From positions 16,203 to 80,202 of IMG/VR virus record IMGVR_UViG_3300028388_003330: DNA of 64,000 nt; one strand, 5' to 3'. Shown here in pieces: positions 1,742-56,055 of this stretch (its first letter is position 1; each line of letters starts with the position of its first letter). The notes beneath the pieces were generated by a model, which made no database searches, had not been told where the DNA came from, and saw only the letters and a list, made by a program, of their open reading frames with translations. The stretch is from a virus. The position numbers and the translations under genes were made by a program.

Positions 1742-2038
1742 TTAACCAAGAGCTTGCTTTACGTTAACCGTAATCGTTGTACCTCTCAGTTTTTTCACCA
1801 CGCCTTCGAGTGTCACTACCTGTAACTCATGCTCACCGACGATGGAGAAATCGCCCTGCTCTACAGCGTATGAAACAATCCCTTTTGCTGGATCGGTAAT
1901 GCTGACCGCAGAATCTTTTGTAACAATTTCCCGGTTGGGCTTTTTAATAATAACCTGCGCATCCGTAGCGCTGGTAAGATCAACATCGGTTTCGAAGTTG
2001 ATAAGAACGCCGTAAGTGTCGGTGTAAATATCAATCAT
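1742..2038 (-). CDS. BppU-N-like beta-sandwich baseplate/fibre accessory protein (copy 1)
   Basis: A 98-aa protein with the pattern 'YTDTYGVLINFETDVDLT...A.V.IKKP...V' and a C-terminal 'VNVKQAL'. It resembles the N-terminal Ig-like domain of phage baseplate upper proteins (BppU_N-like), which attaches receptor-binding proteins to the tail tip. A paralogue lies at 16386-16688. I prefer the ATG at 2038 over an upstream TTG at 2050. It has GGAG six bases upstream and overlaps the preceding stop as ATGA, the junction type used throughout this block. The family assignment rests on pattern similarity only. Confidence 0.7.
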   Translation of the reverse strand: MIDIYTDTYGVLINFETDVDLTSATDAQVIIKKPNREIVTKDSAVSITDPAKGIVSYAVEQGDFSIVGEHELQVVTLEGVVKKLRGTTITVNVKQALG

Positions 2039-18566: not shown

Positions 18567-18954
18567 AGGACAGCTCCTTGGATTTAGCAGGGAAAGTGTC
18601 GATGGAGACGGTGTAGTCGCCGGGAAGCTCGGCAGTTATTTCCAGAACCCCATCGTCCACCGTAACTCGTTCAAGCACGCCCACTGCAGATAGGGTGACA
18701 ACGGCACCAACAGGCACGCCAGACAGCGTGGCAACGTCTACACCGTCAGCGACGATGGACGTCTTATCCAGTTGAGCGGGGTTGTCGGGTCGCAGGACAG
18801 GCTCGCCGTCAGGAAAATATGTGGACGCTGCGTCGAACTCTCCTTCATAGTGTCCCTCGTCGGCATTTACGTTATTCGCCAACCCGCTTTCAACGCCGAT
18901 GTGTATTTTGACGACGCGCCCGGTATCTGTTTTGTAGATGGTGTAAACGCTCAC
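18553..18954 (-). CDS. Small tail-tip accessory protein, 133 aa
   Basis: The GTG at 18954 overlaps the J-like gene's stop (GTGA), with GAGGTGAAGAA upstream. The N-terminus (MSVYTIYKTDTGRVVKIHIG) and the C-terminal small beta-domain (LPGDYTVSIDTFP) resemble short proteins encoded right after J-like genes in many lambda-like tails. These often act as adaptors or fibre chaperones. No enzymatic motif is seen. The assignment rests on position and general character. Confidence 0.65.
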   Translation of the reverse strand: MSVYTIYKTDTGRVVKIHIGVESGLANNVNADEGHYEGEFDAASTYFPDGEPVLRPDNPAQLDKTSIVADGVDVATLSGVPVGAVVTLSAVGVLERVTVDDGVLEITAELPGDYTVSIDTFPAKSKELSFVAT

Positions 18955-27900: not shown

Positions 27901-30900
27901 ACGTTATCGCCATTGATGTTGACATACGTCGTTCCATCGGACGCAATGCCCTCAAAACCCGCGTAGAAAGTACCGGTTCCAGCCGTCCTACGAATAATAA
28001 CGGTCCATTTATAGATACGCTCTGGATCAAACGGAATTAGGCTGTTATGAGCCAACCAGTGAAGATCATCGCCCGAGTTATCACCGATTCTTAGAAACTT
28101 ACCGCCCATATAGCTATCAGCGGCGGTTTGAATCGATAGCTCCCCAGTTCCTTGTCTGGTGATCCAGTAATTCAAGGCATTGGCGTCTTCCCAAGTTTCT
28201 TGGAAAATGAGATTGCCGGAGTTTGACGCCGTCGCTTCAAGCGCTTGGATTGCCTGAGTGTGCGAACTTAAAGTGCCTGCTTGATCAATATAAACTGTCG
28301 TTTCTAGGTTATCGATAGCCTGAGCGCTAGCACTAAGACCCGTTTCCGAGTCGTCAATTGACGCCTGAACAGCATCTAGACGATTGGCGTTAGCAACGAC
28401 GCCTCTTTCACTATCTTCTACCGTCGTTTCAAGATCGCTAATAGCAATAGAATGCGCTGCTACAGCGTCGCCAAGACTGGAGTAATCACCGATTTTCGTC
28501 CAGTAAGCGGTATCGGTAGGAAGAGGCGAAGGTGGAAAAACAGCCGTCGTATCCTGAATACACCGATAAAGCGAACCGTTGTAAGCAACGATATCGTCTA
28601 CAAAATATTCAGTATTCGCATCAAAATCAGGCGTACCTTCAAGCGCCGCCACTTGAGTCTGGAGAGTATCTACCGCGCCCTCTAGGTCTGTCGTTCTATC
28701 GTCAAGACCGGTAGTAGGCGTATCAATTAAATTAATTCTGCTATTGAGCGAAGCGGTTAATTCGCTCTCTGAAATCTGACCCTGAAGATCGGCTAATGTA
28801 ATACCGAAGTCTTCAATGACGACACTAACCTCAGAGCTAAACGTTAGATTGTCTTTGCCCCAAATGTCATACGCCGCAACACGGACATACCAAGTTTCAC
28901 CGTTATTGGCGGTTATCAGACAACCATTGCCAGTACCTTCATATACCTTGTTTGTATTTATATTTGGAGTAAAGCCAATGGTTTGAGATGCGCAAACGAT
29001 ATATCCGCCAACATCAACATCGCCTACACGATCCCAGCCAGCAGCATACTGCGTCTCAGCGTTATTAACGAAAAGATTGCTTGGCGCAGAACTAATCTGC
29101 GGGTTCGTAACGATAATACTTGCGGAGCTACCAGTGGTTCCGCTATAGAGTCTAGCTTTAACCCTAACCGTGATTGAACGATTAATCTGTCCGTCGTTCT
29201 GAGCATCCGCCCATGTATAGGTGTAAGACGGATCTCCAGTGTATGAAATTCGAACAACGGCTGAATTGATTTCAACCTGAACCTCGTAGTCGTAAGCCTC
29301 TTCCAGCTCGTCCCAGCGAACCGTAAAGCGATCCGAAATGAACGGACTTACCAGACCAAGATTCTGAACCTGACCGGGCGGGGCAACTTGAGTGCCGTTA
29401 ACAGCGTTAAAATCACTATAAACGCCATCTGTAGTTACTGCTTTAACCCAATAAAAATAACTGATGCCCTGATTAACTGCGGCATCTGTGAAAGTCGCCT
29501 CTTTTGTACGTCCTATTTCTACCGCCGTACCGTTATCATCACTGGCACTGCGATAAACAACGATTTCGTCGTATATGCCTGTTGGCGGCGTCCAACTAAG
29601 GCTAACGATTGTTCCAATTGCAGTCGCAGTAAGGTTTGTAGGCGTAGTTACATCTGGGCGCGCAGTAGAACTAAACGCGATGGTTGGCGCACCAGCAAAA
29701 GTGGCCCGACGACCAACAATGTCAAAAGCAACGACCTTAAAGAAGACAGAAACGCCAACAGGGATGCGATGACGATACTCCAATGTCCGCATATCAACCT
29801 GACCAACCTTCTCGTAAGGTGCGCCATCAACGGACATATGAATATCTGCACCGCCATAAACACCTGAAGCGGGATACGACCAATACAGATTTGCAACAGG
29901 AAGATAGCTGTTACCTATCTTCTCATATTCTTGGTAGACGCCTAGATCAACAACCTGCCCAATCTGTTGAGGTGCCTCATATATAGGCAACTCAATATTA
30001 TTGTCAACATTATATATTGCCGAATTATACTCAATGGCCCGGATTGTACGAACTTCATGACCAGAACCATTAATTGCAATAACGCGAAATGGACGCTTGA
30101 CTAGGGTAACCGGCCCTAGCATAAATTTTGCGTATTTTGGAGGGGCTGAACCTAACGACGAGGCTACGGTTACCGATGATGTTAAACCCGGCGCGTTTGT
30201 AATATCTCGCTCAATTATTACATCAGTATCGTAAATAGTATAATCATGACCAGCAACGATACCAATGGTGTTTTCTATTTCAACACCATAATTTCCAGAT
30301 CCGTCATCATATACAACGCGACGAATTCGATGATCAACGCCGTTAATAACAGCGCGTGTTACGTTGGTATTGCCGTCATAACTGTTCAACCATACAATGC
30401 CGCCTCCTACTGCTACGCCAGACACCGTACCGGTTGCGCGAGAAATCTTGTCGTAATTAATAAGCAGTCGGTAAGTAATACCGTCTAGTAACTCAACCTC
30501 TTGATCAAGGTTAACAACACTAACCGTGGAATTCGCTTCCAGCCGACCGCTGTACTCCCAATTCGGGAGATTATGCTGTACAAGTATCTGACTACCAACC
30601 GTACAAGCAATAGACTCTACCGGCGCATCAAACGTAATGCTTTTGGTAATGTACTTGTTTAAGTTAAGTTGAAATACCGCCTCATTAACGGCTTGTTGTT
30701 TATCGGTACAACCAAATAACGTTATCCTTGCCGTTTTTACGTCATCAGTTGGCAAAAGAGATGGGTCGCGAACCTTTAATGTGGTTCTTTCATAATCGTT
30801 TTCTGAATCAAAGTAGGTAACTTCGATTTCATTTGCCCTGTCAGTCATGGGCAACCAAGTCATCTTAAATGACTTCTCGACAATGTTACCTACGTTGAAC

Positions 30901-32615
30901 ATCATTACCGGGTCGTCCGCTTTTTCAAGCGCGACCTGATAACGCGTTCCAACGTTTACGATTTGCGCATGACCAAGGCGAAGGACATACTGCAAAACAT
31001 CCCAAACGTTTGAGGCTGTATCAAAAACGCCGTTAAATACTAAAGAGTTGTCATCGCAATGATCGGCCCACTCTTGCCAAGAATCGATATCAAGACGAGA
31101 CTCATCAATTCCTCCGCCATAACGCTTGTTCGTTAATATGTCATACGTTATCCAAGCGGGATTATTCGAAGCCTCATATGTCCAAGTGCCAACGTTATTA
31201 ACATAACGACGGACCTTTATATATTTGCCACCATGCAGATATGTAACGTTGGGAATTGAATTAACTTGATCTGAGGCGCGAAGCTTGACGGCAAGTAGAG
31301 CTGTGTGTCGATATGCGACCTTGTCATTTACGATTTCAGCCACATCGTCATAATTAACGATGTCAACCGTCTGTTCATCAGAAGACGGTGCATCACTGCG
31401 CCGGACGCGAATCTCATAAAAATCTTCAACCAGTTCTGGTGAAGTAAATGTTCTTTGAACGCGAGACCTTCCGCGACCAGAAATTGTAGTTGGTTCAGTA
31501 AAGTTGCCGATTTCTAACTTTTGACCAACAATTTGAAGAGTGGTGTCATCTTGAATAAGCCCGCTATCTAAAAGTGCGGTTCCCGCTCTAAGCGATGACT
31601 CATAGGTATCGGTGTCAGTGTAATAATATTGCGTAACGTATGTGGTTACAGCGTCGAAATTATAAAGCGTTATCCACTCTGCATCCCCAAGCCGACGATA
31701 TTGACAATCTAAAGCAACTGTAACGGTTGCGACATCGCCATTATCTTTGTAATGCGCAAGACCAGCAGGCGCAGAGAAATCTACTCGAAATTGATCAATT
31801 TCGGTTGTAGTTGTGTGAACTATCCAATCAACCTCATTTAATTCGATATTCTTTGCGTGCTCGGTGATATTCTGATTAAACCAAGGAATAACGGTCTGAC
31901 CGCCTGTACCCGGACGTACAGCAGTTTCCCAATCACTGAAATTTTCGATGGGTTGATCATTCAGTTTAATTTCCCCAACGCCAGCAATTGGACCTTCGCC
32001 AGCATTGAGAAGCATGTAAAGAATTTGATCATCGCCAGAATTAACCGTATGCAACGCAATTCGGTTTCCAGCGACTCTAAAGCGCCCATAAACCAAAGGA
32101 ATAGGCACTTCTTCAGATGATGTGTTTTTGGGGCCTGCGAATCCATAGGAGGGACTATCGTCCGCATCTTGGAAATTCTTCGGCATAATTGGCTTTATTG
32201 GCAACAGCGTATTGATCAGCAAACCGCCAATCATCGTGATGCCAGCGGTATACGCATAGCCGATGCCCGTTAGTGCCCCTGCAGCGGTTGCCCCACCCGG
32301 AAGCGCAAGAGCAATTTGGGGAGCAAAAATCGCAACAGCGAGAAACGCAACCAAGCGGAGAATGTTTTTGTCGTCACCGCCCTGCGGAACAGGACAAACA
32401 ACGATACTATCACCCGCCCTGACAGGAACCGAGTAAATTTCCTGCTCAGGAACTAAAGCGCCGTTAAGAGAAACAACAATCTCTTTGTAGGGCGAAGAAA
32501 TGTATTCACCGAGATTCTTGCCTGACGACCATTCGGGCTTACTACGCGTATAATCCCGTGGATCAAACGGGTTGTTAATTACGGTGAGAAAAATTGTTTC
32601 AGTTTTCACCGACAT
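18951..32615 (-). CDS. Giant tail-tip host-specificity protein (lambda J-like), 4,554 aa
   Basis: At 13.7 kb this is about four times the length of lambda J. Residues 1-1000 follow the J/Tal hub layout: N-terminal MoaD-like start, hydrophobic region near 85-135, 'VPIPLVYGRFRVAG', then 'AWITYDILTNKRYGGG'. FN3-like domains cover about 985-1200 and coiled-coil DUF1983-like segments about 1200-1450. A jelly-roll binding module lies at about 1470-1650, with further 'ASITYVDD.I.DEQ.ARATAL.QL' segments. Two copies of a carbohydrate-binding-like module are at about 2930-3140 and 3850-4060. A FAM3/ILEI-like domain is at about 3665-3815 and a LamG-like domain at about 4080-4330. Several 'ATVGA.W..NL...P' linkers occur. 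It recognises the host surface and triggers DNA ejection. It overlaps the K-like gene by 17 nt. Confidence 0.9.
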   Translation of the reverse strand: MSVKTETIFLTVINNPFDPRDYTRSKPEWSSGKNLGEYISSPYKEIVVSLNGALVPEQEIYSVPVRAGDSIVVCPVPQGGDDKNILRLVAFLAVAIFAPQIALALPGGATAAGALTGIGYAYTAGITMIGGLLINTLLPIKPIMPKNFQDADDSPSYGFAGPKNTSSEEVPIPLVYGRFRVAGNRIALHTVNSGDDQILYMLLNAGEGPIAGVGEIKLNDQPIENFSDWETAVRPGTGGQTVIPWFNQNITEHAKNIELNEVDWIVHTTTTEIDQFRVDFSAPAGLAHYKDNGDVATVTVALDCQYRRLGDAEWITLYNFDAVTTYVTQYYYTDTDTYESSLRAGTALLDSGLIQDDTTLQIVGQKLEIGNFTEPTTISGRGRSRVQRTFTSPELVEDFYEIRVRRSDAPSSDEQTVDIVNYDDVAEIVNDKVAYRHTALLAVKLRASDQVNSIPNVTYLHGGKYIKVRRYVNNVGTWTYEASNNPAWITYDILTNKRYGGGIDESRLDIDSWQEWADHCDDNSLVFNGVFDTASNVWDVLQYVLRLGHAQIVNVGTRYQVALEKADDPVMMFNVGNIVEKSFKMTWLPMTDRANEIEVTYFDSENDYERTTLKVRDPSLLPTDDVKTARITLFGCTDKQQAVNEAVFQLNLNKYITKSITFDAPVESIACTVGSQILVQHNLPNWEYSGRLEANSTVSVVNLDQEVELLDGITYRLLINYDKISRATGTVSGVAVGGGIVWLNSYDGNTNVTRAVINGVDHRIRRVVYDDGSGNYGVEIENTIGIVAGHDYTIYDTDVIIERDITNAPGLTSSVTVASSLGSAPPKYAKFMLGPVTLVKRPFRVIAINGSGHEVRTIRAIEYNSAIYNVDNNIELPIYEAPQQIGQVVDLGVYQEYEKIGNSYLPVANLYWSYPASGVYGGADIHMSVDGAPYEKVGQVDMRTLEYRHRIPVGVSVFFKVVAFDIVGRRATFAGAPTIAFSSTARPDVTTPTNLTATAIGTIVSLSWTPPTGIYDEIVVYRSASDDNGTAVEIGRTKEATFTDAAVNQGISYFYWVKAVTTDGVYSDFNAVNGTQVAPPGQVQNLGLVSPFISDRFTVRWDELEEAYDYEVQVEINSAVVRISYTGDPSYTYTWADAQNDGQINRSITVRVKARLYSGTTGSSASIIVTNPQISSAPSNLFVNNAETQYAAGWDRVGDVDVGGYIVCASQTIGFTPNINTNKVYEGTGNGCLITANNGETWYVRVAAYDIWGKDNLTFSSEVSVVIEDFGITLADLQGQISESELTASLNSRINLIDTPTTGLDDRTTDLEGAVDTLQTQVAALEGTPDFDANTEYFVDDIVAYNGSLYRCIQDTTAVFPPSPLPTDTAYWTKIGDYSSLGDAVAAHSIAISDLETTVEDSERGVVANANRLDAVQASIDDSETGLSASAQAIDNLETTVYIDQAGTLSSHTQAIQALEATASNSGNLIFQETWEDANALNYWITRQGTGELSIQTAADSYMGGKFLRIGDNSGDDLHWLAHNSLIPFDPERIYKWTVIIRRTAGTGTFYAGFEGIASDGTTYVNINGDNVFNNQHYHTTGGGKSTIAATWEVITGYTKGYGSPLGDYSGASTAEAPHLAHENVRYMRPVFIANYGGVAGTTEVGAIMLEDATADYAIDTRASITYVDDAIADEQQARATALTQLDTDYKAADAGLQTNIDAKASITYVDDVISDEQQARATALSQLDADYKAADSLIADDVTDLQNGVPIGDFDKVSLPAVETVYNVDLKIHNGSGTTAAFKIFEYTNTGNYHGLALSGRVRYGTRAGRQDNSADVDISVFTNSNGLVHDGIGTFVGTAVYRWRNDVEIPDRLAVYHDPTANKTTIYVLNLENAKEIAGRVQVSVYGVVGNSWIDTRQDAVADAIGDHTYTPAGYEVVPVYSDWGYNDLSSSKASITYVDTAVSNETTARATAISQLETDYQTADDGLQADIDLKASITYVDDVISDEQTARAESIQQLSALTDVRSDEPSYINAQALTSPRVVLGSSGDQTIRIAALEDGTYIYQNSVETAGPLDAMSVITRTASLGDIFTANKPTQFELQDRGDQVPAFSDCGRYFGHYYNRYSPVTLYFYAVSGSAVVKINNAGTPLYDFSSPTATVTVPSGTVQTWSTTVTEPAFVIIESSSDIVAFAEGNAGDYTCLLPMAREILAARYTSVIYDSVNSSYEKTSLGNSHYITSPGLVQTTAIGDSAGGDCEPAISTKMLGDTYLIAHNVSDYVVAAVEPCVITVIDSTGVVATHDLSYASRDNVGKVEVGNIGGVDPTLYSGPVRFEGTAPFMLRLNNLSDDEYVARGMRRALRDYDGLGIAAVQREAKARADKDGLLSSEYTVKVEARAADGKTAIAGIGLSVENDQSGTTSSEVAILANQFSILDPNGVDVSVPFIVRNGVVYIDETYIQDGTISTAKIGDYIQSLNYTPTSGWRIDKSGSAEFSQITIRDSSGNIVLQSGGKINWDGINFSGGSVLDLDYTGALNANYITNTSELTDGAGLGDTANWDGVSGVPVALNRAALGSMHTGGFGDVRLLKNELGDGSANPGEIRITGTTFYHPDGTKRSITNDTQLNTAWEGGIKQDPFYIIYTDESPNTRFANNFGTAVEFFGAIYDIDTDTWQAVDNGNVKYTFTPLDTDCIVAIGRKWTTAAGTGIDVLSSLIATNTNLPADGATVGADFNSNVTNIPYDSIYTNDDSVALGFNPTFSDWPDGQTRPTGWNSYGVGTPVKETTLRRIGPYAVKFVVPAATNFGIVRTVSFYDTPLPADTFVSGAFDIYIENYVAGGRPGILVDLFYNTSGSYRRTPFTAPLTTTGWQKVPFTARLNPGEQIYRLQIHLMASYTGMSGGQFQGTVIFDNLRFAFFDKSIDNTVIELADDGTLSGAGGGKVTILGLGYTGELDADNTYNNSAGSGVNIADYRCSVFEDIFPTLVPVRATVSYDDTISYFGGHSLKISATDNDGYVLLAENASDWNVIIEPGKVWLFSCYVRSSLANSAVQLRAVRNSDGTTPGGSFTCAATPGDWKRITWTLDLSADTSTRLRLRIDNDGGAGCDLWVDGIMFEERVGALSNPSSYAIPGGGTTLYDDLSGTPTSLSEISTAEGTKLTNIEDGATVGQTKQEWYDALEAAFAAGSTLFTTGAINDSIPMSTTIASADTWTFNCPVAGKIIIGVLIRDAEGGVQLALNGTTIGANLHYNEVSSQPDNTSWWFYRVGDAVEGTNTIAIWASNADGAATENIVVKATPAWDVSAVSGMLPNWNLSINGPDGKPAGIEAVESTNSKAAFAWGDSTKTWMRISHANDASVAYGWPAIPIDDKQTYEVTIRHRAESVGTTGLYLRFNEKSSALAEGKTHIGAGGTSALTDTRTTFVSVYNNGQYPGTTWQEDTYTYTPTAGAKFASFAVYHWTATSRYYDVDAVQIRPIGGYEKGATVGATWGTNLDNMPPDEQLLNKYAPMGYNFCGDPGFIKYASGDTSFWNVTGGATVSATGAEDGGPCWQVVNPTATAYGQTCYTNRGEYIPLLQGEKLYCRARVYFSTDYNGTGFRIELNEKTSAGASTAVGSWPDLVSDDGGVTKGQWYWLEGSAAALQPDCRQVSVQIIVGACTGTVKVSHVEVSRVQPEATVGADWTANLSGRPLMYRVVTKGNQATYSAHGHGLYDEDDTQIQGIGRSYTMVVFNRTTGLRESGQTYDVYGSVANATTMAAALNALDNTKIVVVYGFDEPENNRLANGLDAAMYRCGASKAVYGSTNLFKNRSAYVLIGIPGCGEGNGFEAYAGEVDDDPDAWLDIPFSIYKGAPLVSALAKTNSSIYDLDYVGELDADSTYNNTAGSGVNIANYRYSVFENIFPTLAKASTATVSLDATVSYFGGHSLKIAATGDNGYVFLSDGATNYNIPIEPGKVWLFSCYVRSNTANAAVQLYTRRQLNDTYLGYNFTCAATPGDWKRITATIDLSADTTSTRLLLRVDNEGGAGCDVWFDGIMFEERVGALSNPSTYAIPGGGTTEYDDLSGTPTSLSEISTAEGTKLNNIEDGATVGADFWDNFTGYPDSLPNPTKLAGRWSFATDYSDDDSGEFKDATAKLGYVTLSNGANSVSVVQANLGKGVQIDSAGVKLAKNVDTAYATYPQQSWVFVFKAPSTPPPSGARIVTRDLSDGWGVSTSESTYDGNGKMNVSLAFGNPSTLTDAIYQDEWHCLIVTFDKDANELHYYMFHADGSYQTSTLGTTSSFTTTARAVAIGGNSEGDWDTSSLGSGVYYGGIFSEARYYREFWNRDQAWNMARACLQSAGSESGTFAFIDEINQSNVSTVIAAGAIGDAYIGNTIQSTNFVNVTSGWWINKNGNAQFNDIYARGNIEASSLKADSLEIVERGHIAELAVGTLQIDELAVTTLKIADRAVTIPTTNKFTTLTTVANTWTEYGYLTYTATGNEALITVSMRMVISSANGDGYDSLYMDLKRDDVHIYGGTQIARYREGGGDFITFVYMDVPPAGTRRYSVDLYVSNTYESGRNDIEVKVDDLIISALEVKK
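20445..21065 (-). repeat. Segmental duplication inside the J-like gene, copy B
   Basis: This stretch matches 23205-23830 at both protein and DNA level, for example the shared 'ggttggacaatgccccgac' and the region encoding ERVGALSNPS.YAIPGGGT. It encodes about 205 residues of a carbohydrate-binding-like beta-sandwich with the linker 'DDLSGTPTSLSEISTAEGTKL.NIEDGATVG'. Confidence 0.8.
23205..23830 (-). repeat. Segmental duplication inside the J-like gene, copy A
   Basis: Partner of 20445-21065, about 2.76 kb away. Residues about 2930-3140 of the J-like protein. Synonymous differences have accumulated, so the duplication is not recent, yet several stretches of more than 20 bp remain identical and could recombine to remove the intervening binding domains. 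Confidence 0.8.
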
Positions 32616-43907: not shown

Positions 43908-45422
43908 TTAGCTTTGCTCAGTTTCTTGAGCCGGAGTTTCATCTTCCTCATTGACCAGTGAACGAGATCCGACCATTAGCGAATCCTGTACGGGCCAAGA
44001 TTTAAGATTGGCTTTGATCTGTTCCTTGAGATTTTCCGCAAGGTACGGGAACAGCTTCTCAACCACCTGCTCCATTTGATATCGACGAACATCATCAGGA
44101 GCATCGATAAGCGCCAACTGCGACGCAATTTCGAATTCATCAGAAAGACCGCGAACGTCGAAATCATCCGGATACCGGATCAACGGCTCTTCGGTGTGTT
44201 TGTTGCTTTGACCAGACCACAGATTGATCAGCGCGATCATTTTATTTTCCGCAGCCTCAAGCATTCCTGCCTTGGAGGTAAGCAGCGAATTGACACGCTC
44301 AAAATCGTAAGCCTTGGCGACACCAGAGGAATTATCGATCCCCATAGAGTTGTCTGATTTCGTTCGCTCGCCAGCAACTCCGACCGAATGATAAATTTCG
44401 TTGATAATTTGCTTAACCACCGAAATGATCAGTTCAGCCTGTTTCGGATCTGGCGACAGGAAAAACGGCTTGGCACCGTTTTCACCGTCAAACAGGAAAA
44501 TCCTCTTGGTGCCCATTTCCATGAGCTGGTCGTACTCGTCATCGCCAGGAAGAACGCCCTGTGCTGGCATAGCCAACTGCGAGAACGTTTGATCCTGAAT
44601 GATGGCGTCCAAATTTGACAAATAATTGGCTACAGCACGATCAAGATAGGCGATATCGCCAATCAGCGAAGGAGCGGTGTACTTGCTTTCATCGGTTGTG
44701 ATGTGATCAACGGGGAATACCGGAACAACGCCAAGATTGTGTACACCACTATCTTCAACGACGTAGTTGGTTTTGTTGCCGTCGGTCATCACACCAATAA
44801 GAACCCACTCTTCGCGAGTCCAAAGCCGATAACGGCTGGATACCTCACCTGACGATTCAAGCGGATCTTCGTCATCGCGGTATTGCTCACGGATCAGAAT
44901 CCAACGCAATTCACCGTCATCATCGAAACTCATATCCAGCGCATTCTGCGGAGACACCAGATACGAATAGATCCGACCGCTAGATTGTTTCTCGTCAGCG
45001 AGACTAATTGACTCTTCGTTTTTGGAAGAATCCACTACAACCCAAATTCGACCGTAAATCGATGATTTATCAGCAATTTGGCGAATGTAGTGTTCAATGT
45101 CCATGCCTCCGGGCGTTGCATTACGCCAGAACATTGCCACCGCATCAGAAGCGTCATCTTTGACCCGCTCAATCTTGGCTCGAAAAATATATTTCGACAC
45201 CAGATCCACAATCTCTCGGGAATGATTGAACCGATAGGCGCGCTCCACCCGATCTGCGTACTCTTCAGGGCCTTCTTTCAGATACTTGAAGATGTTGAAG
45301 TCAAACCAAGCCCTACCGCCTTCATAGGTATCATTGAGAAAATCCCAATGAGAGACTTTATCCTCATATTCAGGATGTCGCCTCTCAACGAGTTGCTTAA
45401 GCTTTTCTTCGGTGGTTTTCAT
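43908..45422 (-). CDS. Portal protein
   Basis: A 504-aa protein directly after terminase, with portal features: 'YEGGRAWFDFNIFKYLKEGPEEYADRVERAYRFNHSREIVDLVSKYIF', the wing domain 'YSYLVSPQNALDMSFDDDGELRWILIREQYRDD' and the stem/crown region 'IISVVKQIINEIYHSVGV...GVAKAYDFERVNSLLTSKAGMLEAAENKMI'. It forms the dodecameric DNA channel at one vertex and docks TerL. A promoter candidate lies directly upstream. Confidence 0.92.
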   Translation of the reverse strand: MKTTEEKLKQLVERRHPEYEDKVSHWDFLNDTYEGGRAWFDFNIFKYLKEGPEEYADRVERAYRFNHSREIVDLVSKYIFRAKIERVKDDASDAVAMFWRNATPGGMDIEHYIRQIADKSSIYGRIWVVVDSSKNEESISLADEKQSSGRIYSYLVSPQNALDMSFDDDGELRWILIREQYRDDEDPLESSGEVSSRYRLWTREEWVLIGVMTDGNKTNYVVEDSGVHNLGVVPVFPVDHITTDESKYTAPSLIGDIAYLDRAVANYLSNLDAIIQDQTFSQLAMPAQGVLPGDDEYDQLMEMGTKRIFLFDGENGAKPFFLSPDPKQAELIISVVKQIINEIYHSVGVAGERTKSDNSMGIDNSSGVAKAYDFERVNSLLTSKAGMLEAAENKMIALINLWSGQSNKHTEEPLIRYPDDFDVRGLSDEFEIASQLALIDAPDDVRRYQMEQVVEKLFPYLAENLKEQIKANLKSWPVQDSLMVGSRSLVNEEDETPAQETEQS

Positions 45423-45478: not shown

Positions 45479-46774
45479 TTAGATAGACAGACCCCTTATA
45501 TTGGTCAATCGCACCGGATATTCGTACTCAATGCAATAGCCAAGCGCATCTGTGGCGTGTTCCACACTCATCATTTTGTCGATCTCTGGCGACCCTTCCT
45601 TATAGATGGTCTGCTCGAAAGACTGGATGGTTTCCTTGCATTTTTCATCGACCCGCAAACGGACTCGACCGTCGGCTGACATGAGCATGCGATTCACGGC
45701 ATTTACTCTGTCTTTGACCTTTGGATGGCTGTAATGATATTTCATTCTCTTGAAACCGCGCTCCCTGAAAATATCCAGATCCGATTCACCCCTGGCGTGC
45801 TGACGATGCCCACCTGCGGGGTCAGGGTAGATGGTCGTACTCCGCAAATAACGCCAAAAGCGTCGCTCTAGCTCATTACAGGTTTCTTCTGTGTTGGAAC
45901 CGTACAGGATCACCTCGTCAACAACCCAAAGTTCGCCATTCCGCTGTGGCTGCATGATGATCGAAGTCATGGGGTCGATGTTGAAGTCCTGACCAACCCA
46001 GATAGGGAGATTCTCGTTAAATTGCAGCTTTCCAACGTGCAAACCGCGATCAAACGGGTAATAAACCCTACCCGACATGGTTTCAAAGCTAGCCTCAAAC
46101 TCCTGCTTGAAGGACTTGGCGTCCATGTCGCGGCGAGCCTGTTCGATCTCGGAATCAGGGATAAAAGGCGAGGAAATGCTCGGAAACTGCCAAGATTCCC
46201 ATTGATTTGTCGAAATATATTCGGGCTGTTGACCCAAAACGTACAGATCGTACAGGTGATTAAATGACTTCGGAGTCCCGATAAAAAGTGCATGACCTCC
46301 AGTGCTGGCGAGAGTCGGACGAACCGCTTCTTGCCACACTTCCCACTTCATGTCCTGAAACTCGTCCAAAACCACATAATCCAGACCAACGCCGCGCAGC
46401 GTATCCGGCTTATCAGCGCCCTTACACTCAATCATGGAGCCATTAATGAGCCGAACCGTCATGGTCGTCTCATTCAGCTTTTTGATCCATTGGGAGGGGA
46501 TGGCTTCGACAAGTTCATCCCAGATAATCTGTTTTGCCATTCGATAGGTTGGCGCGATGTACCAGACCTTCTGCTTGGCTTTGCGCGTACGATGGATCAT
46601 GGTGGTTTTGGCAAGCTGAGTTTTACCCCAGCGTCGACCGGCAACAACCACTTTAAAGCGCGCCTTAGATCGATAAACGAGTTCTTGACCTGGGTGCAGA
46701 AGAAGATTGTTCTTGGGTTTTTCAACCCGCGCCAATTCCTCCAATACAGGGTCTAAACTAGCCGTTGAGTGCAT
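45479..46774 (-). CDS. terL: Terminase large subunit
   Basis: A 431-aa packaging motor. Walker A is VVVAGRRWGKT (residues 42-52). Walker B is YVVLDEFQD (133-141). Motif III-like 'LFIGTPKSFNHL' follows. The RNase H-like nuclease has 'WVGQDFNIDP' (about 260), 'YPDPAGG' and a C-terminal 'EHATDALGYCIEY' with the last metal-binding Asp. It translocates DNA into the procapsid and cuts concatemers. It overlaps the small subunit gene's end by 17 nt. Confidence 0.95.
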   Translation of the reverse strand: MHSTASLDPVLEELARVEKPKNNLLLHPGQELVYRSKARFKVVVAGRRWGKTQLAKTTMIHRTRKAKQKVWYIAPTYRMAKQIIWDELVEAIPSQWIKKLNETTMTVRLINGSMIECKGADKPDTLRGVGLDYVVLDEFQDMKWEVWQEAVRPTLASTGGHALFIGTPKSFNHLYDLYVLGQQPEYISTNQWESWQFPSISSPFIPDSEIEQARRDMDAKSFKQEFEASFETMSGRVYYPFDRGLHVGKLQFNENLPIWVGQDFNIDPMTSIIMQPQRNGELWVVDEVILYGSNTEETCNELERRFWRYLRSTTIYPDPAGGHRQHARGESDLDIFRERGFKRMKYHYSHPKVKDRVNAVNRMLMSADGRVRLRVDEKCKETIQSFEQTIYKEGSPEIDKMMSVEHATDALGYCIEYEYPVRLTNIRGLSI

Positions 46775-47411
46775 TCTTGATATCTTCTTCGGATTCCCGA
46801 CTGATTTCTTCTAACTCATCAACCGATGTTTCCAACTGCTCAAGCGGCACGACACCCGAACGCAATTCTGCTTCTCTTTGAACCTCTTTGACTTCGTCTT
46901 CGGTCATGCCGCGAATGATCAGTTCCGGCAAATCCCTTTCCTGTTCGTCCTCTTTGTCCATGTCAGTAGCCTTGGCTCTCTGATCAAAGGCTTTCTGCTG
47001 GATGCTCAAGGCTCGCTCAATGGAGCGAAGATCAGGCTCTACTGACGCTAGGCTAACGCCGTTTTTCATAGCATCGGCAACGATCTTCATTCCGGCCTTA
47101 GCCAACACCGTTGCGTTGTTGTAGTGGAACTGTTTGGTGTCGATTTGCCTTTTTGCAATTATTTTTGCATTCCAAACATCGGCGCGAACCAATTCCTCGT
47201 GAACCTTTTTCCGATGCTCTTCTGCCTTCTCACCGTAGCGAATCCCCCATTCCTTCATTTTGCGCGAAACGGTTTCACGCCGAACGCTGTATTTTTCAGC
47301 GATATCCATAAGGCGCATCTCACCCATTGCCCAAATAGCGGCAATTTCTTGCCACTGTTTTTTGGTCAGGCGATTACCTTTGTTGGTGTCTTTGTTTGTT
47401 CCGTCACTCAT
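46758..47411 (-). CDS. terS: Terminase small subunit
   Basis: A 217-aa protein from the ATG at 47411. The preceding TTG codon lies within a terminator T-tract and is rejected. An N-terminal HTH (residues about 15-60, 'KKQWQEIAAIWAMGEMRLMDIAEKYSVRRETVSRKMKEWG') would recognise the packaging site. A central helical oligomerisation domain and an acidic C-terminus that would contact TerL complete it. It is the first gene of the packaging/head block, just after a promoter-terminator leader. Confidence 0.85.
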   Translation of the reverse strand: MSDGTNKDTNKGNRLTKKQWQEIAAIWAMGEMRLMDIAEKYSVRRETVSRKMKEWGIRYGEKAEEHRKKVHEELVRADVWNAKIIAKRQIDTKQFHYNNATVLAKAGMKIVADAMKNGVSLASVEPDLRSIERALSIQQKAFDQRAKATDMDKEDEQERDLPELIIRGMTEDEVKEVQREAELRSGVVPLEQLETSVDELEEISRESEEDIKNALNG

Positions 47412-47427
47412 TCTCTTGGCTCGGGAC

Positions 47428-47457
47428 AAAAAAATGGGCGTATGCTGGGATACGCCC
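47428..47457 (-). terminator. Intrinsic terminator in the leader upstream of terS
   Basis: Minus strand: GGGCGTAT, 6-nt loop, ATACGCCC (47457-47436), then A and seven Ts (47434-47428). This is a textbook rho-independent terminator, placed 17 nt before the terS ATG and about 30 nt after the promoter at 47486-47514. Confidence 0.85.
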
Positions 47458-47642: not shown

Positions 47643-47984
47643 TCACAGATCGAAGTCCTCGTAGGTAAGAGGAAGACCGCTCGGGGGGAAACAGGTTTCA
47701 TCCTTCGGATTAACCATTCCCATGATTCGGTATCCTGCTGCTGTCGGAGCGAGAATAACTCTTCGGCGACCTCTGCGAATCTCTTTTCCGTTTTTCACCA
47801 TCAATCCACGATTGATCAAGGCTCGGATTGAAAACTGCATCGACTGTTTCGTAGTTTTCCAACCATGCTGGTGATTCAATCTTTCAAGAAGTTGGTCAAT
47901 ATCAACAAACACCTCGTCATCCTCCATGCTGCCATCACACAGCACGGTAAGGATCTTCGTTTGTTTGTCGGTCAAAGTACCCAT
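47643..47984 (-). CDS. Winged-helix regulator-like protein, 113 aa
   Basis: A compact helical protein with 'DDEVFVDIDQLLERLNHQHGWKTTKQSMQFSIRALINRGLMVKNGKEIRRGRRRVILAPTAAG', the layout of a winged helix with a basic wing (residues about 62-85). It is the last gene of the ParB/ABC block and the nearest regulator-like gene to the late promoter-terminator, so it is a candidate late regulator, although I cannot tell repressor from antiterminator. ATG at 47984 with GAGAAG upstream. Confidence 0.7.
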   Translation of the reverse strand: MGTLTDKQTKILTVLCDGSMEDDEVFVDIDQLLERLNHQHGWKTTKQSMQFSIRALINRGLMVKNGKEIRRGRRRVILAPTAAGYRIMGMVNPKDETCFPPSGLPLTYEDFDL

Positions 47985-47998
47985 TTCGCTTCTCCCAT

Positions 47999-49078
47999 TT
48001 AACTACCGACGTATTCGAAGCCAGCGGTCATTCGACCTACAGACTGACCAGTAATTTTTCCGTTAGCGCCCTTCTTTCCAACCATGCTGGGTGATCGGGT
48101 CAAGCGCCAGTTAGGATTCTTCATTCGAGAATGGAAAAAGGCGGGATGACTTGTCACGCTCGTATACCGTTTGCCAAGTGATTTGTAATAGCTGGCAATG
48201 GCGTCGCTCATCTTGTTGCCAATTCCGATTCCCTGATAGTCCGGCAAAACAACAGTTCGATGCTCTCTCCAGAGGTTTTTAACCTTGTCGTGAGGCTGAT
48301 AAATCGCTGCCGTAAAGCAAACCGGTTCATCTTCAAGAAAACCGACGTAGCAATGCGACGAACTATTCAGTTCGGCGCTCATATAGTGATGACCTTTGAA
48401 AATTCGCCACGCCGAGTGATGAACTCTGCGTATTTCGAGGTGGATTTCCGGTCTTCGAAGTCGCCCCCTAGTCCACTCAAAACTGTTGGTATCAACTTGA
48501 TACACCCAGTCGGGACGAAGCCATTCGATAATGTCGAAATGGCAGGACACGGCGACAAACTGCTTGTCGGTTTTTCGAATGTATTTCTGCACAGCTTCGC
48601 TGCCATATCTGGCGGCATTACGGTCCACAACCGATGTAAACTCGTCCATGACAATCAATTCCTTTTCAGGGTCACAAAGCAATCGTGCAACCTCGGAACG
48701 GAACTGCTGGCCGTTGCTAAGCAGGTGAAAGGGGTTCATCCAAGCCATTGGCGAAGAAAATCCGACGTGAGACAGGGCTTGAGTGATGTCTGCGGCGCTC
48801 ATGCCTTTGGGAAAATCATCGACGACGTGCTCTCCGGGCCACTCATAGCCCGTGTGATAGTTTTCCGAACCGAAGATGCGCTTCGCCAGCGTGGTCTTCC
48901 CAGAGCCGCTTGGACCGACGATCAGACCTATCTGCCACTCCTGTTCCTCAATCGGAATGTCCACTTCCCAAGATCGTTCGATTCGGTCATCAATGGGAAT
49001 GTCGAACATTCCCATCACCTTGTCGGATCGGAACGTGGGCTTATATTCATGAGAAACGGTATGCGTAAACTTAGGCAC
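47999..49078 (-). CDS. ABC-type ATPase fused to a GNAT-like acyltransferase (COG2401-like)
   Basis: A 359-aa fusion. The N-terminal ABC ATPase has Walker A GPSGSGKT (55-62), signature LLSNGQQ (119-125), Walker B LIVMDE (141-146) and H-loop His180, with no membrane domain. The C-terminal GNAT-like domain (about 215-340) has HHYMS, 'RTVVLPDYQGIGIGNKMSDAIASYY' (acyl-CoA loop at 281-288) and 'FFHSRMKNPNW'. The architecture matches COG2401 (ABC ATPase fused to predicted acetyltransferase). A nucleic-acid modification role, as for Mom-type GNATs, is possible but unproven. The GTG start is preceded by GAGGTGAG. It follows two ParB genes. Confidence 0.85.
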   Translation of the reverse strand: MPKFTHTVSHEYKPTFRSDKVMGMFDIPIDDRIERSWEVDIPIEEQEWQIGLIVGPSGSGKTTLAKRIFGSENYHTGYEWPGEHVVDDFPKGMSAADITQALSHVGFSSPMAWMNPFHLLSNGQQFRSEVARLLCDPEKELIVMDEFTSVVDRNAARYGSEAVQKYIRKTDKQFVAVSCHFDIIEWLRPDWVYQVDTNSFEWTRGRLRRPEIHLEIRRVHHSAWRIFKGHHYMSAELNSSSHCYVGFLEDEPVCFTAAIYQPHDKVKNLWREHRTVVLPDYQGIGIGNKMSDAIASYYKSLGKRYTSVTSHPAFFHSRMKNPNWRLTRSPSMVGKKGANGKITGQSVGRMTAGFEYVGS

Positions 49079-49086
49079 AACTCACC

Positions 49087-49686
49087 TCACATCGACAGCA
49101 CGCGGCACTTATAACCTTTCTCAGAAAGCATGCTGTAGACGGTTTCTTGGTCTTCTTCTGATTCGCACTCAACAACCACTTGAAAGGCTTGTGAGTAATT
49201 TGCCTCTTTAGGCTCCCGATTCGTTGCTAGCTCATCAGATGAGTCACCAACGCCATCAAGATCGATGTCATCCAAAGGCAAAAGATCGTCGTCAGAAACC
49301 TCAAGCTTGATTTCGTCAGGGTCAAAACCAAGACTTTCGAACGTGTAGTCGCTGGATTTGAAAAGCGTGCTCAATTCACGCGCCAGAAGCTCTGAGTCGA
49401 TCTCTCCCAGCGCCACGCGATTATCTGCTAGTCGTGCTGCTCTTACCTGATCGTCGCTTAGATCGCTTCTCACAAGCACTGGCACTTCATCCATGCCAAG
49501 CTGCATTGCGGCTAGCCTGCGACCGTGACCTTTAATGATTACGCCGTCTTTATCAACGACGATTGGCTGATCCCAACCAAAGTTCTTAATCGACTGGGCG
49601 ATTTTGTCGATCTGACCCGGCGTATGGAGCTTCGGATTATTCTCGTAAGGTTTCAGGTCAAATATTGACCACGCTTCAAGCATCAT
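49087..49686 (-). CDS. ParB/Srx-fold domain protein (copy 1)
   Basis: A 199-aa protein. The N-terminal ParB-like domain has 'LKPYENNPKLHTPGQIDKIAQSIKNFGWDQPIVVDKDGVIIKGHGRRLAAMQLGMDEVPV', with the nucleotide-binding GHGRR motif at 53-57. Residues about 120-160 are acidic linker, and the C-terminus has a small strand-rich domain. ParB folds bind CTP or ATP and some are nucleases. In phages they often accompany DNA-modifying enzymes. The start (49686) overlaps the zinc-ribbon gene's end, with GAGGAT upstream. It is followed nine bases later by the ABC-GNAT gene. Confidence 0.88.
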   Translation of the reverse strand: MMLEAWSIFDLKPYENNPKLHTPGQIDKIAQSIKNFGWDQPIVVDKDGVIIKGHGRRLAAMQLGMDEVPVLVRSDLSDDQVRAARLADNRVALGEIDSELLARELSTLFKSSDYTFESLGFDPDEIKLEVSDDDLLPLDDIDLDGVGDSSDELATNREPKEANYSQAFQVVVECESEEDQETVYSMLSEKGYKCRVLSM

Positions 49687-49831
49687 CGGGAAAATCCTCT
49701 ACCGAGTCGTCATCGAAATCCAAAAGGTCATATTCGTCCTTTGGTTCAAAAAACTCACCGTCATCACACTCATCGCAAATACGATCTTCGTGCTGGTTGA
49801 TGCAGTCTACACAGTCGGGAAACTTGATCAT
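49676..49831 (-). CDS. 51-aa acidic zinc-ribbon-like protein
   Basis: ATG at 49831 overlapping the ParB copy-2 stop (ATGA), stop at 49678-49676 inside the next ParB start. The sequence begins MIKFPDCVDCINQHEDRICDEC: two CxxC pairs 12 residues apart, ideal for one zinc. The remainder is very acidic (about 17 Asp/Glu in 27 residues). It may bridge or regulate the two ParB proteins. The overlap on both sides makes it a credible gene. Confidence 0.75.
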   Translation of the reverse strand: MIKFPDCVDCINQHEDRICDECDDGEFFEPKDEYDLLDFDDDSVEDFPDDA

Positions 49832-50484
49832 TTTTCGCCCCATTCTTTAAACATTTGCACCAAAGCATCACCGGCTCTCTCAAGAGAGTCAGTGCTATCA
49901 AAACCTTGTTGGTTGATAATATTTTCAATAGCGTCGGTGATTAGATGAGCATCATCTACCGGCACTTTGAAACGAATAATCTGATGCGTTTGAAGAGGGC
50001 GCTCGGTTGGATCTTTTTCAGGTATTTCTTCTTCTGAGTCTTCAATTTCCAACTCTGATAGATCAATATCTATCGACGCGAAAATCGAATTCATTTCGGC
50101 ATCTGAATATGGCAAAAACGAAAGATCGGTTTCTCCAAGGCTTTCTAGGAGTTCAGCGAGCGCCAAAGTGTCGTCTGCCCCATACCTTCCGTTATCTACT
50201 AAACCAATTTCTTTGGCTTTTACGTCGTCAATGAACCCAACATTGATAATTGGCACCTCAGACATTTTCCGCTTGAGCGCCAATTCAACGCGATGCTGCC
50301 CACCGAGGATTTCCATTGAGCCGTCGCCCAGCGTTCGAACCAGAATTGGCTTGAACATTCCGAGCTTTTCTATTGATGCCTCAAGCTTTTTCTGGTTTTC
50401 GGGGGTAACCCTGTTAGTGTTCCAAGGGTTTGGCTTGAGCAATGAGGGCTCAACGTATTCAAATTGAAGGTTTTGTTGGTTCAC
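49828..50484 (-). CDS. ParB/Srx-fold domain protein (copy 2)
   Basis: A 218-aa protein starting at the GTG at 50484 (AAGG six bases upstream; TTG at 50487 is the alternative). ParB-like core: 'VEPSLLKPNPWNTNRVTPENQKKLEASIEKLGMFKPILVRTLGDGSMEILGGQHRVELALKRKMSEVPI', GGQHR at 61-65. An acidic linker (about 145-165) and a C-terminal strand domain with 'IIRFKVPVDDAHLITDAIENIINQQG' follow. It shares fold and linker style but low identity with copy 1. It heads the divergent minus-strand operon facing the helicase gene. Confidence 0.87.
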   Translation of the reverse strand: MNQQNLQFEYVEPSLLKPNPWNTNRVTPENQKKLEASIEKLGMFKPILVRTLGDGSMEILGGQHRVELALKRKMSEVPIINVGFIDDVKAKEIGLVDNGRYGADDTLALAELLESLGETDLSFLPYSDAEMNSIFASIDIDLSELEIEDSEEEIPEKDPTERPLQTHQIIRFKVPVDDAHLITDAIENIINQQGFDSTDSLERAGDALVQMFKEWGEK

Positions 50485-50556
50485 CAAGAAGCCTTATGGG
50501 TGCTAGTATAAGTAAGCCGTGAGTTATTCTGCCGCAATTATAAGAATGAGGTCAAG

Positions 50557-53578: not shown

Positions 53579-53654
53579 GCCCTCATAGCTCAACTGGTAG
53601 AGCAACGCACTTGTAATGCGTAGGTTGTGGGTTCAAGTCCTACTGGGGGCTCCA
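53579..53654 (+). tRNA. tRNA-Thr (anticodon UGU)
   Basis: A complete cloverleaf. Acceptor GCCCTCA/TGGGGGC with one G-U pair, D-arm with GGTAGAGC, anticodon stem ACGCA/TGCGT enclosing CTTGTAA (TGT at 53612-53614), T-arm with GTTCAAGTC, discriminator T and an encoded CCA (53652-53654). It decodes ACA, which may supplement host supply for this phage. It lies within the plus-strand operon between a membrane peptide and the relocated paralogue. Confidence 0.95.
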
Positions 53655-54516: not shown

Positions 54517-55083
54517 ATGGGTGACCGTGAATGGTCAGAAATTGTCACTCGCTTGCGTCGCGAGCGTGACGAAGCCAGAGCCGAGTGCGAAGAGCAGGCC
54601 CGCTTGTTGGGTATGTCGGCCGAGCGTGAGGTCAGCCTTCGCGCCGAGAACGAACGCCTCCACCAGATAGAGGCGAGCGTGGATGTTGTGACTGCTGACT
54701 GGGCTCAGCGATGTCAGGAGCTTGAGCGGTTGCTCGCCGAGCGCGTTGACGACCACACCGCAGACCTTACGCGTATCACTCGCGAGCGCGACGAGGCAGA
54801 AAGGCATTTAGCGTCCCTGCAAAACAGATTCGCACAAGTGACAACCGAGAACGAGCGGTTGCAAAAAGCTAACAACGAACTGCGACATGGAATACTCGAC
54901 CACACCAACACGACGTTGATTGATAACGATGTGTTTTTATCAATCGCACAAGACGCAGAGCGGTATTGGTGGCTGAAACGGCAACAATATGTCACTTGGG
55001 CGCAACACGGGTACGGACTTGGACCAGGCGCAAGAGGCCATAAACTTGATGTCGTCATCGACGCGGCGCGGGAGGGTGAGTAA
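54517..55083 (+). CDS. Coiled-coil protein with 'DAERY.WL' C-terminal domain, 188 aa
   Basis: Long Glu/Arg coiled coil over residues about 5-125, with repeated 'RRERDEA' and 'AENERL' units. Then 'DAERYWWLKRQQYVTWAQHGYGLGPGARGHKLDVVIDAAREGE'. ACAGGAGGGAGAACAA precedes the ATG. The last codons contain GGGAGGGTGAG, the ribosome site for the next gene, and the stop overlaps its ATG (TAATG). First of a chain of related genes. The coil suggests oligomers, with unknown partner. Confidence 0.75.
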   Translation: MGDREWSEIVTRLRRERDEARAECEEQARLLGMSAEREVSLRAENERLHQIEASVDVVTADWAQRCQELERLLAERVDDHTADLTRITRERDEAERHLASLQNRFAQVTTENERLQKANNELRHGILDHTNTTLIDNDVFLSIAQDAERYWWLKRQQYVTWAQHGYGLGPGARGHKLDVVIDAAREGE

Positions 55084-55601
55084 TGGCAAATGGATTCGGT
55101 GAATGTAGCAGCCTTTGCGACTGCGTGTGTGCAGTTTCTCCGGACGGCAACTGCTTGGCTCTAGCCGAACTCCGCGCCGAGATTAAGCGACTCACCTTAG
55201 AGCGCGACGCTATAGAACGCCACGCGGCAAACGTCATATGGGACCTAGAGCGCGAGCGCGACCAACTTCGCGCCGAAAACGAGCGGCTGAGAGGAGAAGA
55301 CAATTATGTTCACACGCAGGACGTGATTGACGAGCTTGTTCGTGAGCGCGACCAACTTCGCGCCGAGAACGAGCGGTTGCGTGTAGATGTCGAACGACTC
55401 CGTAATGTGGATAGGCTCTACATGAAGGCGGAGGGTGTAATTGCGCACCTTGAGTCCGAGCGTGACGACCTGTTGTTGGACGCAGAGCGGTATCGGTGGC
55501 TAAGACAAAGCCGTGGACCTGCGTCACCGATTGGTGAAATTTGGAGGTATAGCGCAAAGGAACTTGATGTCGTCATCGACGCGGCGCGGGAGGGTGAGTA
55601 A
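55083..55601 (+). CDS. Coiled-coil protein with 'DAERYRWL' C-terminal domain, 172 aa
   Basis: Three near-identical coil units ('ERERDQLRAENERLR') follow a short N-terminus with clustered cysteines (FGECSSLCDCVC), which may bind a metal. The C-terminus 'DAERYRWLRQSRGPASPIGEIWRYSAKELDVVIDAAREGE' matches the upstream gene, and the last ten residues are identical. TAATG junctions on both sides. Function unknown. Confidence 0.75.
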   Translation: MANGFGECSSLCDCVCAVSPDGNCLALAELRAEIKRLTLERDAIERHAANVIWDLERERDQLRAENERLRGEDNYVHTQDVIDELVRERDQLRAENERLRVDVERLRNVDRLYMKAEGVIAHLESERDDLLLDAERYRWLRQSRGPASPIGEIWRYSAKELDVVIDAAREGE

Positions 55602-55771
55602 TGGAAATAGACAGCGCAGCAGTGTTCCGAGTAGCAGAGCTACATCGGGAGATCGCGGAACTCCGCGCCGAAAACGAAGAACTGCGCGGTGTTGTTTACA
55701 AGATCGTAGACCGTATCGTCCCTATGACGCCTGTCGTGTTGGCGGCGTTAAAAATGCGGGAGGGTGAGTAA
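55601..55771 (+). CDS. Small coiled-coil protein, 56 aa
   Basis: ATG at 55601 overlapping the previous stop (TAATG), TAA at 55769-55771 overlapping the next ATG. The sequence begins MEIDSAAVFRVAELHREIAE, contains the family unit LRAENEELR and ends MREGE. It lacks the 'DAERYRWL' domain, so it looks like a coil-only member. The junctions strongly support translation. Confidence 0.68.
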   Translation: MEIDSAAVFRVAELHREIAELRAENEELRGVVYKIVDRIVPMTPVVLAALKMREGE

Positions 55772-56055
55772 TGCCAATTTTAATGGACTCCGACGAAAAC
55801 CCCATTGAAGTCACCGATGGTGGAGCGGCTGAAATATTTCGCCTCCGCGCCGAGAACGAACGGCTGCGCGAAACAAACGACGCCATCAAGCGTGTTACGA
55901 AAGAATGGCGCGTTGATGCAGAGCGGTATCGGTGGCTCAAAACCTTTGCCCTTTACCAAAATGGTCATAACGCAGGCATCCAGTTTTTCTGGCCGCAAAC
56001 CACATACGAACTAGATGCCGACGCCGCTATTGATGCAGCACAGGAGAAAAAGTGA
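55771..56055 (+). CDS. 'DAERYRWL' family protein, 94 aa
   Basis: An N-terminal acidic segment (MPILMDSDENPIEVTDGGAAE) and a short coil (FRLRAENERLRETN) are followed by 'VDAERYRWLKTFALYQNGHNAGIQFFWPQTTYELDADAAIDAAQEKK'. The last domain is the third variant of the shared C-terminal module. It overlaps its neighbours by one base (TAATG, TGATG). Function unknown. Confidence 0.72.
   Translation: MPILMDSDENPIEVTDGGAAEIFRLRAENERLRETNDAIKRVTKEWRVDAERYRWLKTFALYQNGHNAGIQFFWPQTTYELDADAAIDAAQEKK

Follow-up and report, generated by a model that had tools for sequence, protein, structure and literature searches.

The ABC-GNAT gene and its companions

The stretch of DNA analysed here, hereafter the window, spans 64,000 nucleotides (nt) of a virus record of IMG/VR (IMGVR_UViG_3300028388_003330, 80,202 bases; record positions 16203-80202). 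Four genes lie on its minus strand between 50487 and 47999, and are transcribed in the order ParB1, CxxC protein, ParB2 and ABC-GNAT, the last one encoding an ABC ATPase fused to a GNAT domain. ParB1 and the CxxC gene overlap by 16 nt, the CxxC gene and ParB2 by 11 nt, and a gap of 8 nt separates ParB2 from ABC-GNAT. An earlier note on this DNA had raised the idea that the set is one machine, possibly involved in DNA modification or packaging control. All four open reading frames (ORFs) are present as described; ParB_N matches (E 9e-9 for ParB1, 2e-7 for ParB2) confirm two ParB-fold proteins, and ABC_tran and Acetyltransf_1 match one and the same chain. The length of 51 amino acids (aa) attributed to the CxxC protein holds from an internal ATG, and becomes 55 aa from the first one. 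The features are the following.

49828..50487, minus strand: ParB1, 219 aa, a second ParB lacking the tail (PF02195, ParB_N, E 9e-9; phrog_723, E 5e-63)
49676..49843, minus strand: acidic protein with a CxxC-x9-CxxC pattern, 55 or 51 aa
49087..49686, minus strand: ParB2, 199 aa, made of a ParB_N/CTPase-fold domain, an acidic linker and a conserved C-terminal tail (PF02195, E 1.7e-7; phrog_930/620/498)
49090..49197, minus strand: tail formed by the final 36 residues of ParB2, YSQAFQVVVECESEEDQETVYSMLSEKGYKCRVLSM (alignment; phrog_28816)
47999..49078, minus strand: ABC-GNAT fusion, 359 aa, GTG start (phrog_11143, E 1e-103, full length)
48470..49078, minus strand: ABC ATPase half, residues 1-203 (ABC_tran, E 7e-9)
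48002..48469, minus strand: GNAT half, residues 204-359 (Acetyltransf_1, E 1e-5; structure model)

The PHROG covering the whole ABC-GNAT chain is of unassigned function. The ABC half carries the Walker A (GPSGSGKT, 55-62), signature (LSNGQ, 120-124), Walker B (IVMDE, 142-146), D-loop (SVVDR, 149-153) and H-loop (His180) motifs, the residues of which are invariant or nearly so across the family alignment. The GNAT half features His231-Tyr232, Arg274 and, at the acyl-CoA pocket looked for in the earlier note, an acyl-CoA loop (V276-x-P-D-Y-Q-G-x-G-x-G287) conserved in the alignment as V-x-P-D-Y-Q-G-x-G. AlphaFold2 models (pLDDT 90.7 for the GNAT half, 90.6 for the complete protein) adopt GNAT and ABC folds, and every PDB fold match of the GNAT-half model is a GNAT. 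A PADLOC scan for defence systems gave weak generic ATPase matches only, and identity as a defence system was rejected on this basis.

A tblastn search with the window protein found matches in 55 of 50,697 phage records, and in 50 of the 55 one single matching region spans 80% or more of the query. Besides these isolate phages, the family includes more than 590 IMG/VR stretches among the matches listed, and prophage-like loci in genomes from several bacterial phyla. Members are usually annotated as hypothetical, iron-siderophore transporter or ATP-binding protein; in Pseudoalteromonas phage SL25, two unannotated kilobases (L002 5386-7429) contain an intact ParB-tail gene and ABC-GNAT. The term COG2401 was met nowhere in the literature searched. 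One group of loci (L015-L037), many of them from large viral contigs that reach 412 kb, encodes ABC and GNAT separately; the two genes often lie 1-2 kb from each other, with intervening genes, and neither ParB nor tail is found. Directly behind ABC-GNAT, the locus L014 carries an additional GNAT-like gene that stands alone (1597-1974).

The family and the broad idea of DNA acylation are already in print. In a passage of Iyer et al. 2021 (PMC7824862, which cites Iyer et al. 2013) ABC ATPase-coupled GNATs are predicted to acylate DNA bases, and QAX98348.1 of Aeromonas phage AsFcp_2 and a protein of Tenacibaculum phage pT24 are named as members. The window protein is 43% identical over 85% to QAX98348.1 (L041), as well as to its counterpart in phage PX29, and 37% identical over 89% to that of pT24 (L038). 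Family and domain order are thus the same, but the jumbo and T4-like members lack both ParB and tail, whereas the window belongs, in the tree, to a ParB-coupled siphophage branch. The passages of PMC7824862 on the family do not mention ParB or the tail; Iyer et al. 2013 and 2009 may already mention ParB neighbours. New relative to the published prediction is the genomic context, namely the coupling through the tail, the occupation of the place of mom and the donor-type gene cassettes, and this context supports the prediction.

Genomic coupling of ABC-GNAT to the C-terminal tail of ParB2

Loci were collected by alignment query (80 from IMG/VR, 80 from GTDB), joined to the phage records and reduced to 136 representatives sharing less than 75% identity. 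Coupling was assessed in the 117 fused, dereplicated loci with enough upstream sequence. The tail, the last ~35 residues of ParB2 (FQVVVECESEEDQETVYSMLSEKGYKCRVLSM, phrog_28816), is encoded upstream of ABC-GNAT in 112 of the 117, on a ParB in 109 and as a stand-alone micro-protein in 3. It ends within 30 nt of the ABC-GNAT start in 84 loci (81 in ParB, 3 as a stand-alone ORF), and lies 30-3500 nt upstream, always in ParB, in another 28. One of the remaining 5 loci carries a ParB with no recognised tail, and 4 carry neither. The most frequent junction is an overlap of exactly 22 nt (49/84). The micro-protein, 41-49 aa in length, occurs in Komp_PAO1_1 (hereafter Komp), in Porphyromonas and in a faecal phage, all of which lack a ParB there; about 4 nt are common to its gene and the start of ABC-GNAT. 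The N-terminal domain of ParB2 matches 412 phage records, at least 80% of the query is matched in only 11, and all 11 carry ABC-GNAT.

The conserved unit is therefore composed of ParB2, by way of its tail, and ABC-GNAT. The other two genes do not belong to it, and the four-gene machine is not supported. Homologues of ParB1 are found in four close relatives (L084, L091, L093, L095), and a ParB1-like second ParB flanks ABC-GNAT in about 10 of the 136 loci; homologues of the CxxC protein are found only in two close relatives (L084 and L095). Joint inheritance of the four genes, expected in the earlier note, thus breaks down beyond close kin. ParB1 is a lineage-specific extra gene, and both it and the zinc ribbon are mainly limited to close relatives. 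The label "zinc ribbon" derives from the CxxC-x9-CxxC pattern alone, because no family was matched in profile searches; identity with Com was rejected, no PF10122 match being obtained at E 1.

ParB2 shares with canonical ParB/Noc CTPases the ParB_N domain and the nucleotide-pocket Gly and Arg (motif GHGRRLAA), and its closest solved relatives are Spo0J, Noc and ParB. The helix-turn-helix (HTH) and C-terminal dimerisation domains of the canonical proteins were not detected (ParB_N was the only match; TIGR00180 fell below the cut-off), and the tail stands where they would be. No ParA was met among the neighbour genes profile-searched, no search of the whole record having been made. The ParB part of phage fusions of ParB to DNA methyltransferases also matches the ParB2 N-terminal domain (phrog_498, E 5e-42; PADLOC MTase_II, E 5e-24). 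In contrast to these fusions, the partner of ParB2 is ABC-GNAT, and is reached by the C-terminal tail rather than by fusion; a Pfam search found no methyltransferase domain in ParB1 or ParB2. The coupling suggests that the tail may act as an adaptor to ABC-GNAT.

ABC-GNAT in the place of mom

ABC-GNAT occupies the place of mom twice, independently, in two unrelated phage groups. Komp is a Mu-like phage (Gam, transposase and transposition protein are present), in which genes follow in the order com, tail micro-protein, ABC-GNAT, formyltransferase. Its com (L043 3644-3892; PQ287647.1 22093-22341) matches PF10122 at E 9e-21, and a similar com (PF10122, E 4e-15) overlaps a true mom (PF25680, E 4e-73) in the P. 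aeruginosa phage GEC_PNG14. The zinc-ribbon gene of Komp is not annotated as Com, the record showing a shorter hypothetical ORF. Close relatives of Komp, which would allow a finer map of the swap, are absent from the phage collection.

The second case is provided by the Arthrobacter phages EastWest and Sonny. Flanks are common to the two (upstream gene 64%, DNA-binding protein 80%, clamp 46% identity), and the ParB N-terminal domains are 54.5% identical over 132 aa. Between the flanks, EastWest carries ABC-GNAT, Sonny a Mom (PF25680, E 4e-61). The ParB tail changes accordingly: it is of the ABC-GNAT type (beta-alpha-beta-like) in EastWest, and a CPxC knuckle, accompanied by Mom, in Sonny and in Antuna, where the ParB gene overlaps the mom gene. 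Since ABC-GNAT and Mom exchange places, they are inferred to be functionally equivalent. The two may coexist, as the T4-like Aeromonas phage PX29 hosts both a true Mom and ABC-GNAT (GU396103.1 36066-36950 and 53329-54213).

The likeness to Mu Mom and the com-mom operon includes the type of enzyme (a phage GNAT), the locus in Komp and EastWest, and a ParB neighbour as in Antuna and Sonny. A His-Tyr motif near the start of the GNAT domain is a possible further likeness: it is near invariant in both proteins, and hhalign aligns it one residue out of register. ABC-GNAT differs in the additional ABC ATPase, in the type of ParB tail and in falling outside the Mom family. Com was not found at the window locus (PF10122), and the com-mom type place is taken in Komp and EastWest, not in the window. 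The earlier note had tied the DNA-modification role to Mom-like acyl transfer, and this link is strengthened by the published family prediction and by the two replacements; at the level of sequence the GNAT half falls outside Mom.

The DNA-modification reading is the best supported, the activity itself being a prediction. ParB2 and ABC-GNAT probably make up a late-expressed, Mom-like phage DNA-marking system, which shields the packaged genome from host restriction. Several observations weigh against this. The GNAT half gives no PF25680 match at E 0.1, while true Moms score between E 1e-46 and 4e-73, and hhalign of GNAT versus Mom returns a probability of 1.6%; membership in the Mom family was rejected on these results. 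By eye, the Mom invariants D139 and Y149, which act as metal ligands, are not seen (SFAD...G.IYQA.N in Mom, TSHP...NPNW in ABC-GNAT). The fold search gives DNA modifiers no special place among GNATs, which as a class acylate many substrates, and a DNA-binding domain was not detected in ABC-GNAT. Among its members, the T4-like ones have neither ParB nor tail, and the tail is missing in Aeromonas, Vibrio, Tenacibaculum and Nonlabens phages, as in the split-gene contigs mentioned above. Donor cassettes, described below, are missing from most loci, this record included, where ASCH and formyltransferase genes were searched. Finally, the literature found reports the chemistry of no ABC-GNAT member.

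Neighbouring genes, possible acyl donor and proposed mechanism

The earlier note had the operon end beside the terminase genes; TerL and portal genes do follow, but a winged-helix-like and a TerS-like gene are interposed.

47643..47984, minus strand: winged-helix-like protein, 113 aa, phrog_900, last gene of the operon (profile searches)
47436..47457, minus strand: stem-loop resembling a terminator (8 bp, followed by a run of T), which separates the ParB/ABC-GNAT operon from the terminase genes
46758-47429, minus strand: TerS-like, neighbour outside the module (profile searches)
45479-46774, minus strand: TerL, neighbour outside the module (profile searches)
43908-45422, minus strand: portal (profile searches)

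A gene related to the winged-helix-like one is found in 5 loci. At the side opposite to the terminase genes the operon is bordered by a divergent gene encoding a UvsW-like helicase. In the window, as in many siphophages, the module is found a short way upstream of TerS/TerL, and one may suppose that DNA topology or the start sites of terminase are the target of ParB and the ABC ATPase, with the GNAT domain as a regulatory add-on. Such a role, entertained in the earlier note, is quite unlikely. In Komp, in Porphyromonas and in T4-like phages the module is placed away from the terminase genes, the GNAT CoA loop is conserved, and 55 of 50,697 phage records are too few for a core packaging factor. 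A terminator-like site precedes TerS, and is only suggestive, the count of such sites in the sequence not exceeding that of shuffles.

Elsewhere in the window are one tRNA-Thr (TGT) gene (53579-53654, plus strand); a 1266-aa protein (2035-5835, minus strand) with many ~22-residue repeats (SAQETGSDSVSIDGDVLVSGDL), corresponding to 66-bp tandem arrays in the DNA; a single 4554-aa ORF (18951-32615, minus strand), the product of which is probably located at the tail tip or in a central fibre; and a series of small overlapping coiled-coil ORFs (54517-56055, plus strand) with the common ending DAERYRWL...VIDAAREGE, apparently tandem gene duplicates.

Genes plausibly involved in donor supply flank ABC-GNAT in some loci. 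PanD (PF02261, E between 1e-30 and 2e-33 in the loci scanned) and a CoA-transferase III of ~230 aa (PF02515, E 1e-9 to 8e-8) co-occur in five, which include several unrelated phages, namely those of phage Jace and of L155, L179, L183 and L201, the genes of L183 being broken or frameshifted; a sixth locus, L211, has the CoA-transferase without PanD. PanD is located directly behind ABC-GNAT in all PanD loci except L201. The trait needs at least 3 changes on the tree, and therefore the link is not one inherited accident. Since PanD would yield beta-alanine, and the CoA-transferase a CoA thioester, the pair suggests a supply of beta-alanyl-CoA. A phage protein matching the GNAT-like fold (BFVD A0A8S5PZ92, rank 15) bears the name aspartate 1-decarboxylase, which, in view of the PanD link, may reflect a slip or a fusion. 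In one clade (support 100; L040, L043, L044, L049) a formyltransferase gene (PF00551) is found behind ABC-GNAT.

Alternatively, GNAT could acetylate a protein, be it ParB, terminase, capsid or the RNA polymerase of the host, and the ABC domain could have a regulatory part. Most of the fold-nearest GNATs act on proteins or small molecules, and phage GNATs acetylating RNA polymerase are known (Rac, cited in a passage of PMC7824862). This is unlikely, as it leaves unexplained the place of mom taken in two lineages, the ParB coupling common to Mom and to ParB-methyltransferases, and the donor-making PanD and CoA-transferase genes.

ASCH genes are found within 700 nt downstream of ABC-GNAT in 22 of the 136 loci (93 kb), versus 12 in the other 1110 kb, thus about 22-fold denser, and are mostly convergent with ABC-GNAT and abutting. 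RNA binding is known for domains of this type, and one of them, YqfB, hydrolyses N4-acylcytosine (PMC6972931). The ASCH proteins of the loci retain the Lys and Arg of the YqfB site, carry Glu in place of the nucleophilic Thr24 (motif GxKxxENR), and find their best PDB match in ASC-1. As a strong claim, an N4-acylcytosine eraser of YqfB type was rejected for this substitution and for the ASC-1 match; given the substitution, these proteins are equally likely to be readers or erasers.

There is also a slight chance that GNAT modifies dNTPs, tRNA or rRNA, in the manner of TmcA, the tRNA(Met) cytidine N4-acetyltransferase, which likewise combines ATPase and GNAT on a single chain and targets a nucleobase. 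TmcA differs from ABC-GNAT in its helicase-type ATPase, its tRNA substrate and the lack of a ParB. Its structure (2zpa) appears in both PDB fold searches, at ranks 44 and 31, but is not distinct there from ordinary GNATs; as a special structural relative it was rejected, and the analogy alone retained. The RNA-binding ability of ASCH domains would favour such a target, but the proteins found here lack the YqfB nucleophile, and both the coupling to ParB and the replacement of mom speak for DNA.

Neither ASCH nor formyltransferase (PF00551) nor N6/N4 methyltransferase (PF01555) genes were found in the 80-kb record, possibly incomplete, which accordingly hosts the minimal ParB and ABC-GNAT form, plus the ParB1 and CxxC genes. 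The DNA-marking system could work as follows. ParB2 would bind a nucleoside triphosphate and load onto phage DNA, as its fold suggests, and its tail would dock ABC-GNAT, as suggested by near-universal coupling and tail swapping. With ATP, the ABC domains may form a dimer that remodels the DNA or opens it, letting a base enter the GNAT site, where an acyl group would be moved from acyl-CoA to an exocyclic amine, either adenine N6 or cytosine N4. Host restriction enzymes would then fail to cut the packaged genome. This phage would draw on an acyl-CoA of its host; in others the donor may be beta-alanyl-CoA, made by phage PanD and mini CoA-transferase III. It is put forward as a tentative proposal that ABC-GNAT acylates DNA bases, driven by ATP and guided by ParB, that the exchangeable ParB tail picks the partner, one type serving ABC-GNAT and another Mom, and that some phages write a beta-alanyl mark through the route from aspartate to beta-alanine (PanD), to beta-alanyl-CoA (mini CoA-transferase III), to DNA.

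Through the double replacement of mom by ABC-GNAT, accompanied by a ParB tail of its own type, a prediction that takes one line in the literature becomes a specific test, for which culturable phages are at hand in Komp (P. aeruginosa PAO1), EastWest and Sonny (Arthrobacter), and Jace. If the proposal is correct, phages own an ATP-dependent, ParB-steered DNA acylation, and the beta-alanyl tag, which could be searched by mass, would represent a class of base modification unreported in the literature found. The clustering of ParB near phage modification enzymes would then be explained by a common loader equipped with interchangeable adaptor tails.

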